DNA of 64,000 bases from Acididesulfobacillus acetoxydans. Lineage in GTDB: Bacteria; Bacillota; Desulfitobacteriia; Desulfitobacteriales; Desulfitobacteriaceae. The stretch is taken from the NCBI RefSeq assembly GCF_902729405.1, contig NZ_LR746496.1, positions 2,666,001 to 2,730,000 on the forward strand, given 5' to 3'. Every line of letters begins with the position of its first letter. Position 1 is the stretch's first letter. Shown one piece after another: positions 42,670 through 62,672 of the stretch. The position numbers and the translations under genes are program-made. The notes under the pieces were generated by a model. It was not told where the DNA came from. It worked only from the letters and a program-made list of their open reading frames with translations, and ran no database searches.

Positions 42670-43280
42670 CTCTTTAACCCCCTTTTCCCGGTTCGATTGT
42701 GAATACTCGCCTGTCATGACACGCCACCCCTGATCCTAAATTTGTACTGCATTTTGCCTATTATTAAAGAGAACCCTTTTCGTTACACAAAAGGGAACTG
42801 TGGAGCGTTATAGGTTGTGAGTTCGAATGGGGCAGTGGTAAGCCCTTTTGGCCATTGTGCGCCAGGATCACTGGTGTCACTTGATCGAGCGTATTCAGAT
42901 ACTGTAGACGCGACCATCATCCCGGGAACGCAAGGAGCGTTTTCGCATCGGCCCTCCGACTATGTAAGCTACCAGCCGTTACTGCCAATAGCTGCTACGT
43001 GAATTCCTTTTGGCTCAGTTGTTTCCGTGTTCTTTCATGGCAGTGTCCCATAGACTACTATCCAGTATATGAGAAGCCGGGGAGAGCAGTTACAGGATAC
43101 ATTTTGTCTGAAGCATCAAGTTGATTGTCAGCCGCAAACAGGGGATTAAGCATATCGCGAGCAGTCATTGGAAGGCGTGGCCGGTAAGCGGTGTAAGGAA
43201 GGATGAAGGTGGCTTGAGTGAAAAAGGCGAGTAGGTGTGGGACAAAGAGGAAAAAATAACAAGGTTTTGGAAGAAACCTC
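42670..43280. other. Gene-poor stretch upstream of aspartokinase
   Basis: About 600 bases with no convincing gene. A hairpin AACCCTTTT/AAAAGGGAA lies at about 42777-42803. Short frames at 42817-43002 (plus) and 43058-43390 (minus) have no ribosome site and match nothing I know; they may be remnants. Confidence 0.45.
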
Positions 43281-43309
43281 TTGCTAAACGGATTCAAGTC
43301 AGATATAAT
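43281..43309 (+). promoter_or_regulatory. Sigma-A promoter of the 43.3-kb micro-operon
   Basis: TTGCTA and a perfect TATAAT are separated by exactly 17 bases, 47 bases before the 33-codon ORF. Confidence 0.72.
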
Positions 43310-43355
43310 ATTACTATTACCGTGAAAGGAATGGTGCAAGAAAGGAGGAAAACGT

Positions 43356-43457
43356 ATGAGCCAAAACGAAAAGAAAATCATTGAGGCCATCTTGGCTTCG
43401 GTCGGCTTAGAACACCTTCAGCCGACAAGAGATGCGCGTTCGGGGAGAAATAATTAA
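43356..43457 (+). CDS. 33-residue small protein of unknown function
   Basis: Short ORF with an excellent ribosome site, AAGGAGG, 7 bases before the ATG. The sequence starts MSQNEKKIIEAILASVGLEH and ends in a basic, polar tail (PTRDARSGRNN). The first 20 residues can form an amphipathic helix. Promoter upstream and terminator downstream frame it as its own transcription unit, together with the 6-codon ORF. No family is recognised; a regulatory or signalling peptide is possible but unproven. Confidence 0.6.
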   Translation: MSQNEKKIIEAILASVGLEHLQPTRDARSGRNN

Positions 43458-43478
43458 TCTGAAGGAGATTATTTTAAA

Positions 43479-43499
43479 ATGAATCCTGAACAATTATGA
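43479..43499 (+). CDS. 6-codon ORF (MNPEQL) abutting the terminator
   Basis: AAGGAG lies 11 bases before ATG; the ORF reads Met-Asn-Pro-Glu-Gln-Leu-stop, and its stop codon touches the terminator stem. Either a translated micro-ORF, the truncated start of a lost gene, or a ribosome-loading site that influences the hairpin. Confidence 0.3.
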   Translation: MNPEQL

Positions 43500-43533
43500 A
43501 AGCGAGTTCCTTGCGTGTGAGGAACTCGCTTTT
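43499..43533 (+). terminator. Intrinsic terminator of the micro-operon
   Basis: AAAGCGAGTTCCT pairs with AGGAACTCGCTTT across a short loop, followed by TTT. Confidence 0.85.
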
Positions 43534-44282: not shown

Positions 44283-44408
44283 AAGCGAAGTCCGCAGAAC
44301 CATGGCTTGTTGGGCCCAAAGCGGGGTCCGCAGAATCACGGCTTGTTGGGCCCAAAGCGAAGTCCGCAGAATCATGGCTTGTTGGGCCCAAAGTGGGATC
44401 CGCAGAAT
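44283..44408. repeat. 36-bp tandem repeat, three and a half copies
   Basis: Three full 36-bp units of the form AAGCGAAGTCCGCAGAATCA + TGGCTTGTTGGGCCCA with one to five changes, then a truncated fourth. The copies are directly adjacent with no spacers, so this is not a CRISPR array. It begins at the stop codon of the FMN reductase gene. Confidence 0.93.
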
Positions 44409-60582: not shown

Positions 60583-60627
60583 ATCGGGTAGGAGGCTGGT
60601 CATTAATTGGCCAGCCGACCTCCCACA

Positions 60628-60657
60628 GCACCGTACGTACCGTTCGGTATACGGCGC
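60628..60657 (-). ncRNA. Group II intron domain V
   Basis: Minus strand GCGCCGTATACCGAACGGTA followed by CGTACGGTGC: the two arms pair with a short ACC-GAAC-GGT apical stem and an internal bulge, as in the catalytic domain V. Confidence 0.88.
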
Positions 60658-60673
60658 CTCCAAAGTTTACACG

Positions 60674-62083
60674 TTATTTGGCAGAGTAGCATTGACTAAA
60701 ACTGGGGTATCCTGCGCGTTCGATGCGTTTGTTGGATAAGGACATTGTCAAAATGTGGCTATGGGCTACTCGCCAATAGCCCTTTCTTGTGTTTGCCCAC
60801 ATCCATGCTTGCTCCTTCTTGATGCCAAGCTTCTGCAAGTTCGCGTATCGTGTGCGTACTCTCTTCCATCGTTTCCATGTGATCATCCGAATTCGACTTC
60901 GTAGCCATTCGTCCATTTTTCCGAGTAACGCTTTGGCGTCTGCCAGTTTAAAGTAATTGGTCCATCCTCGGATGATGTAATTGAGTTTTGCCTTTCTCTC
61001 CTCGATTCCCATCCCGTTGCTCCGTCCGGTGACTTTCCGGATCTTGTCCTTTAGCTTCAGGATGCTTTTCGGGTGGATTCTCAGTCGTCCTCTTCCTTTG
61101 TGGATGTAGAAGCCGTATCCCAGATACTTGACTTTCCTCACGTGTGCCACGCTTGTTTTCTCCTTATTGACTCTGAGGAATAGTTTCCCTTCGATATAAG
61201 GAACAATATGGTCTAGCGTTCGCCGGGCCGCTTTCTCGCTTTTGCAGAAAATCATCATGTCATCCGCGTAGCGTACGAAGCGATGCCCACGCTTTTCTAG
61301 CTCGTGGTCACAAACGTTTAGCATGACGTTTCCAAGTAAGGGACTAAGGGGCCCCCCTTGGGGTACGCCTTCCGGACTTTCTTCAAATAGTCCGTCCACC
61401 ATAATCCCTGCTCTGAGGAATTTATGGATTAGGGATATGACTCGTCCATCTTTGATGGTGTCTGAGAGGATTTGGATGAGTTTGCTTTGGTTGACCGTGT
61501 CAAAGTATTTCTCCAAGTCCATGTCCACGACGTAGACAAAGCCTTCTGTGATATGCCTTTGACATGCTCTTAGCGCGTCGTGAGCGCTTCGTTGAGGTCG
61601 GAACCCATAGCTGTTGTCTGAGAATTGCCTTTCGAAGATTGGCGAAAGGACCTGGGTTATGGCCTGTTGGATCAGTCTGTCCACGACGGTAGGGATTCCC
61701 AGCTTTCTCATTTTCCCGTTCTCTTTGGGTATTTCTACCCTCCGTACGGGTTTCGGACGGTATTTCCCGTCCCAGAGGGCTTGCAAAAGTTCATCCTTGT
61801 GTCCTTTCAGGTAGGGTAGAAGTTCGTCCACCTGCATACCGTCGATTCCACCCGCGCCTTTGTTCCCCTTCACTCTGTAGTAGGCTCGATTAAGGTTCTC
61901 GGCGCTGAGAATTTCCTCTAGCAGTTTCTCTGTCTGCTCGTCTGTGTTGGTGTTGTCGGTTTTGGTCATCCTGGGTGGCACGCACACTTCTGCATACTCT
62001 CTCTGTTCCGCAGATGACCTTTGCAGATAGTCTTTAAAGCAAAGTTGTCTGTGTTTTAAATTACCACCTTCGGTAACTTTCAT
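60674..62083 (-). CDS. ltrA: Group II intron reverse transcriptase/maturase
   Basis: 469-aa protein that helps its intron RNA fold, splice and re-insert. The reverse transcriptase domain has GIPTVVDRLIQQAI, YGFRPQRSAHDAL, GVPQGGPLSPLLGNVML and catalytic YADDMMIF (about residue 250). A maturase (X) domain follows (KLNYIIRGWTNYF; WMWANTRKGYWR). The chain ends shortly after, without the HNH endonuclease found in LtrA-type proteins. ATG 62083 lies 10 bases after AAAGGAGGTG. No frameshift or stop is seen. Confidence 0.96.
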   Translation of the reverse strand: MKVTEGGNLKHRQLCFKDYLQRSSAEQREYAEVCVPPRMTKTDNTNTDEQTEKLLEEILSAENLNRAYYRVKGNKGAGGIDGMQVDELLPYLKGHKDELLQALWDGKYRPKPVRRVEIPKENGKMRKLGIPTVVDRLIQQAITQVLSPIFERQFSDNSYGFRPQRSAHDALRACQRHITEGFVYVVDMDLEKYFDTVNQSKLIQILSDTIKDGRVISLIHKFLRAGIMVDGLFEESPEGVPQGGPLSPLLGNVMLNVCDHELEKRGHRFVRYADDMMIFCKSEKAARRTLDHIVPYIEGKLFLRVNKEKTSVAHVRKVKYLGYGFYIHKGRGRLRIHPKSILKLKDKIRKVTGRSNGMGIEERKAKLNYIIRGWTNYFKLADAKALLGKMDEWLRSRIRMITWKRWKRVRTRYANLQKLGIKKEQAWMWANTRKGYWRVAHSHILTMSLSNKRIERAGYPSFSQCYSAK

Positions 62084-62488
62084 TGACCCACACCTCCTTT
62101 GGTTCCGCCCTTCCGTCGGTGTCCGGGACACCTCTGTACTATGGCTTCTGCTGACTCCTCACGACAAATCTTGTTTCAACCGGGCTTCTTACTCCGTTTC
62201 CACCCGTCCGTGAGGCCTCCCACGGTAAGACGATTCACTTTCATTCCATGTCCCCGCAACATTTACGCTGACGTGTCCGTGTAGCTTTTGGGCTTCAACT
62301 TGTATGGCAGTCTTACCCCACATTTCGCGCCTAATATTGTTCGTGTTCCTCGGGGCGGAACTTTGCCGCCGGCTTCCTTCAGATTCCATCTCGCAATGGA
62401 CACCCTTGCCTTGAGCTAATGGTTGGTCGCTACATACCCCCATAACGGACTTTCACCGTCAAGTTAATCGTCATGCGTGGCGCACCAG

Positions 62489-62516
62489 AAAAGGCACCCG
62501 AAATCCTCCGGGTGCC
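62489..62516 (-). terminator. FMN riboswitch intrinsic terminator, intron target
   Basis: GGCACCCG pairs with CGGGTGCC across GAGGATTT, followed by TTTT on the minus strand, then CTG and the first base of the intron. Confidence 0.9.
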
Positions 62517-62555
62517 GCAACGCAAGCAGGAAAACAAAGCCAACTGCTAAGCCGG

Positions 62556-62672
62556 CCTTCCCTCTTCCCATCCAGACTGTAACTGTCGGCTCCGGAATCA
62601 CACCGGATCTGCCAAAACGGCTCGCGGGCTTTACCGCCGGTAAGGATTTTCACCTATCCCCAGAGGAGCAAA
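62556..62672 (-). promoter_or_regulatory. FMN riboswitch (RFN element)
   Basis: Minus-strand reading shows the full conserved order: CTCTGGGGATAGGTGAAAAT, CCTTACCGGCGGTAAAGCCC, GCGAGCC, GATCCGGTGTGATTCCGGAG, CCGACAGTTACAGTCTGGAT and GGGAAGAGG. It controls ribD-ribE-ribBA-ribH; FMN binding should favour the terminator at 62489-62516. Confidence 0.97.

Follow-up and report, generated by a model that had tools for sequence, protein, structure and literature searches.

A conserved microprotein gene of Acididesulfobacillus acetoxydans with a second tiny reading frame that ends on its terminator

Three kinds of described system come closest to the small transcription unit considered here. The dual-function small RNAs SgrS/SgrT, SR1/SR1P and VcdRP (PMC8672173) are short, independent RNAs with their own promoter and intrinsic terminator, which encode a small protein, a few tens of residues long. 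In translation-sensitive terminators, including that of the pyrBI leader, a stop codon adjoins or overlaps the terminator stem and the E. coli ribosome represses termination; where the terminator lies a few bases past the stop codon, repression by the translating ribosome is almost complete (PMC4824070). Small proteins have also been found in RNAs regarded as ‘noncoding’, where a conserved peptide had been missed by annotation (PMC5521070). The unit shares the promoter, terminator and small protein of the first, the stop-codon placement of the second and the overlooked conserved peptide of the third, and departs from each group. Unlike the first, it carries a second cistron, which ends on the terminator; unlike the pyrBI type, it has neither an arrest motif nor a downstream gene that is fixed family-wide, and its host belongs to the Bacillota; and unlike the third, it represents a new family that is bicistronic in one order.

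The window, a 64,000-nucleotide stretch, spans positions 2,666,001–2,730,000 of the 4.52-Mb single-contig genome. Every element of the micro-operon named in the original prediction was located, to the single base, between window positions 43281 and 43533. All lie on the forward strand. The sigma-A-type promoter (TTGCTA-17-TATAAT, 43281–43309, 10/12 match) has its −35 box at 43281–43286 and its −10 box at 43304–43309. An imperfect dyad without strand assignment (CAAGGTTT...AAACCTCTTG, 43260–43283) overlaps the −35 box and is a candidate operator. The ribosome binding site AAGGAGG (43342–43348), predicted to be unpaired with a probability of 0.98, precedes ORF1, which encodes a 33-residue microprotein (MSQNEKKIIEAILASVGLEHLQPTRDARSGRNN) from the ATG at 43356 to a TAA ending at 43457. 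A further site, AAGGAG (43462–43467), precedes ORF2, which encodes the six-residue peptide MNPEQL between the ATG at 43479 and a TGA ending at 43499. The intrinsic terminator (AAAGCGAGTTCCTTGCGTGTGAGGAACTCGCTTTT, 43499–43533) consists of a 13-pair hairpin (43499–43532) followed by a T tract, and the first base of its stem is also the final base of ORF2's stop codon. As had been noted, the block is AT-richer than its surroundings, with a GC content of 40% versus 55% for the whole window.

Comparison with a relative from the same genus, Peptococcaceae bacterium CEB3, sets this unit apart from its flanks. The promoter (29/29), the ORF2 segment (21/21) and the terminator (35/35) are identical in the two genomes, ORF1 is 96% identical (98/102), and the dyad is kept save for one central base. 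Outside the unit, identity falls to 77% in the downstream gap, to 78% where the next gene begins and to 32–60% in the upstream region. The promoter ranked first of nine found between 41000 and 46000, where 3.5 were expected from shuffling.

ORF1 has relatives well beyond this genus. Of 61 related genomes searched with the single sequence (E <= 1), 38 contained a match, and a profile detected relatives in 49 of the order's 74 genomes. The sister family within the class lacks them. When 398 genomes sampled from the phylum were searched, weaker relatives (E from 1e-6 to 1e-3 per genome) turned up in 16 additional genomes belonging to other classes. These sequences are very short, and their small scores are backed by context: nearly all are tiny open reading frames, for example (M)DKKLIDEILKSIGLEHIEEEEKPAQH, preceded by a strong ribosome site and followed at once by a terminator. 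The core motif is E-x-x-[IM]-I-E-x-I-L-x-[SED]-[VI]-G-L-E-x-[LI]. Membership of this ‘IEAILxSVGLE’ family was defined by [EDK]xx[LIM]I-x-x-IL-x-x-[VI]GLE-x-[LI], beginning no more than about 12 residues from the initial methionine in a frame of fewer than about 70 codons; ORF1 carries the motif in this form, and almost all family matches lie in open frames of less than 70 codons. Searches of Pfam, NCBIfam and PHROGs with 14 members returned no significant family, phage and plasmid collections gave no match, and no description of the family was found in the literature. A Pfam hit of one member only to Abp2 (ARS binding protein 2; E 0.004) and the best PDB profile match, to a segment of a retron reverse transcriptase (E 0.045), were both judged to be chance.

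The pattern of substitution is that of a protein-coding gene. Among 28 Desulfosporosinus-type sequences of the orthologous group A, which come from one genus and are hence non-independent, pN/pS is 0.28 overall and 0.13 in codons 2–22. The synonymous bias looked for in relatives is thus present, and comparison shows ORF1 to be a gene of an unnamed family with its N-terminal ~22 residues under strong purifying selection. By the same sequence-based measure, it has the small protein that characterises dual-function sRNAs. Since this family of tiny proteins spans many strictly anaerobic Bacillota, ORF1 is, on comparative grounds, a real and overlooked gene rather than a chance pattern. The alternative that the arrangement is accidental, or the decayed remnant of a larger gene, could draw on its position in an AT-richer, gene-poor stretch; it is refuted by conservation of a short frame across genera, by purifying selection and by matches almost all of which lie in open frames below 70 codons, and its probability is negligible.

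Group A loci are syntenic in at least six genera. The gene order, with names read from the sequences, is GNAT acetyltransferase, micro-operon, FMN reductase, DegV, phosphoglucomutase, DnaJ and ClpB; individual genes are missing from some loci, and the acetyltransferase is absent in this genus. Two paralogous groups exist besides A. ORF2 is missing from group B (MTAQEK..IIETILADVGLEPL). Group C (LSKKQINIIEEILASVGLESLKASEPKNVLKKIS) occurs in nearly identical form in genomes of two families (loci L090, L091, L095, L096, L097, L098, L102, L104, L108 and L109) among unrelated neighbours, a pattern suggestive of the horizontal transfer of some 200 bp as one unit; the group C micro-operon was absent from the phage and plasmid collections searched. 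A promoter of comparable type lies upstream in 25 of 29 group A copies and 8 of 10 group C copies. With its own promoter, a strong ribosome site, a last stop codon that touches the terminator, and free-standing paralogues among unrelated neighbours, the micro-operon is self-contained, as first described. A second, diverged microprotein core (MEEIIEEILASAGLESLE...) occurs in the same genome behind GAAAGGAG (locus L117, G000:C1:1141221–1141274, reverse strand), and in its CEB3 counterpart (L118) the reading frame ends inside a GGGCGGGTTCCTG hairpin.

Almost all related genera of the order have a distinct ORF of 6–22 codons between ORF1 and the terminator, with its own ribosome site. This site is recognisable across genera as AAAGG(G/A), whereas the ORF2 sequence is wholly different between them: MNPEQL here (genus g1), MSYDLDEQRKYTP in g2, MI(Y/N)DET in g3, MSVTQQTMxNLDxFCAxR in g4, MACDSKSMKN and MFTTSVSKCE in g5 (the latter, like the ORF2 equivalent of locus L082, identified by eye), MTQILILNCNLI..(K)SQI in g6, MPLTQANTNERFFRE in g7, MLITYFSKL in g8 and MMLISYSQTLSE in group C. 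TTG, GTG and ATG starts interchange. In g6, the frame is open in 28 of 28 sequences, with exchange of TTG and GTG starts, and length varies by whole codons through 3-base indels. There, the ORF2 frame has a pN/pS of 0.65 (0.70 for the 20 sequences of equal length), the two shifted frames give 1.59 and 1.04, and in group C the ORF2 value is 0.14, calculated from few changes. These values point to weak selection on the ORF2 peptide. Readthrough of the ORF1 stop codon into ORF2, which is in frame here, was dropped as an explanation; other copies are out of frame. A conserved hairpin masking the ORF2 ribosome site, which would couple its translation to that of ORF1, is suggestive at this locus, where the site is predicted to be 0.38 unpaired and 0.77 once the end of ORF1 is deleted, but inconsistent across genera.

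The ORF2 stop codon sits on the terminator in g1 to g8 and in g11. ORF2 was, however, picked among possible reading frames, and the unbiased test of this contact is therefore provided by copies that lack it. In 26 such copies, some of them near-identical and with 8 further copies without a recognised terminator left out, the distance from the ORF1 stop codon to the stem ranges from −3 to +11 nt and is within 5 nt in 24. For ordinary genes at the same loci, the median distance from stop to stem is 32 nt, with 5 nt or less in 14 of 87. Because of this difference, placement of the last stop codon on the terminator is taken, from sequence comparison, to be a property of the family. Comparison further shows that in this order a second tiny cistron separates ORF1 from the terminator and preserves the contact.

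Taken as a whole, the unit is probably an autonomous, sigma-A-driven microprotein gene, in which ORF1 would act in trans through its helix and ORF2 would be a lineage-specific last cistron that places a ribosome on the terminator. A helix is predicted for ORF1 residues 3–15 (pLDDT > 90), followed by a loose tail; in the sequence, I8, I9, I12, L13, V16 and L18 form a single hydrophobic face. Conservation is concentrated at the N-terminus, and the C-termini of both ORF1 and ORF2 differ freely among genera. Given the single hydrophobic face and the variable C-termini, the simplest reading of the predicted structure is a soluble amphipathic-helix peptide that would dock in trans on a conserved cytosolic partner, even if a 33-residue helix tells little of function. 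The regulatory peptide first suggested is compatible with ORF1 as a microprotein under purifying selection. An alternative is a peptide docking on bacterial microcompartment shells, akin to a stand-alone encapsulation peptide, and encapsulation peptides do have an amphipathic N-terminal helix of similar general style. The present genome also contains a shell-protein locus with five BMC-domain matches (G000:C1:2150901–2157223). Even so, this idea is very improbable and was rejected on distribution, as many genomes with the microprotein, including G007, G016, G005 and all five of g11, have no BMC shell protein.

Translation of ORF2 would follow that of ORF1. A ribosome reaching the end of ORF2 would then cover the 5' side of the terminator stem, and translation of the unit may in this way tune the amount of transcription passing the terminator; in group A, readthrough would supply the FMN reductase, DegV and phosphoglucomutase genes. 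In a rival reading, the micro-operon would be a leader or attenuator forming the 5' part of that operon, with the position of a ribosome on ORF1 or ORF2 choosing between termination and readthrough. In every group A locus compared, this one included, the following genes share the strand of the unit, no promoter was found in the gap downstream of the terminator in the window, and the overlap of the final stop with the stem has a known effect in E. coli (PMC4824070). Readthrough into the reductase is plausible because in several Desulfosporosinus loci its start lies only about 30–60 nt past the terminator without a recognisable promoter. The original suggestion of a leader left without its gene is wrong as worded, with the reductase and phosphoglucomutase genes following on the same strand here and in orthologues. 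Nevertheless, the attenuator is unlikely: copies of groups B and C and of other classes have unrelated or opposite-strand neighbours, and g4 retains a TATAAT-like box past the terminator. A conserved gene directly downstream is seen in group A but not in groups B and C. ORF1 is conserved at its N-terminus, and no C-terminal arrest motif is conserved in ORF1 or ORF2 across genera. Copies that stand alone indicate that the peptide is not just a leader. The free-standing copies of groups B and C and the lack of a conserved arrest motif lead us to treat the microprotein's function in trans as primary and ribosome gating of termination as secondary. Also counting against gating are the weak selection on ORF2, its dissimilarity between genera, and the pointlessness of readthrough in group C, where mostly convergent genes lie downstream. 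Tight coupling of transcription and translation in Bacillota is itself doubtful.

The transcript folds better than 200 of 200 shuffles (z −4.1), mostly owing to the terminator. A dual-function RNA, which would encode ORF1 and use a 3' part with the conserved stem to base-pair with other mRNAs, has precedents such as VcdRP with its 29-residue protein (PMC8672173). The spacer, ORF2 and terminator are conserved above the level of the neighbouring gene, and the stem sequence AARCGAGTTCCT, found once in this genome, recurs behind homologous micro-ORFs across genera and in groups A and C, although pairing alone would be needed. Against this, Rfam searches of the window and 16 relatives gave only hairpin-driven, sub-threshold matches at the micro-operon, covariation lends essentially no support to a consensus structure beyond the terminator, the 3' region largely reads as a conserved ORF, and copies in other classes have unrelated terminators. 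This explanation is quite improbable as a whole, and an RNA role of the 3' part is possible but unproven.

The autonomous microprotein gene adds a widespread, unannotated family to anaerobes that include sulfate reducers and probably organohalide respirers. A tentative and rather doubtful extension is a gene class in which a final micro-ORF parks the terminating ribosome on the terminator, its sequence free while its ribosome site and stop position are fixed, and in which translation of the microprotein transcript would set readthrough or RNA stability. The natural series of copies in which ORF2 is present, absent or replaced suits testing the stop codon on the terminator as a regulatory device in Bacillota.

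Two other features were observed in the window. Between the reductase and phosphoglucomutase genes (44284–44405), a ~43-bp unit (...GCTTGTTGGGCCCAAAGCGGGGTCCGCAGAATCA...) is repeated in tandem about three times. On the reverse strand, the region 60583–62671 contains group II intron domains near an FMN riboswitch (62556–62671), and an intron is possibly inserted just 3' of the riboswitch.
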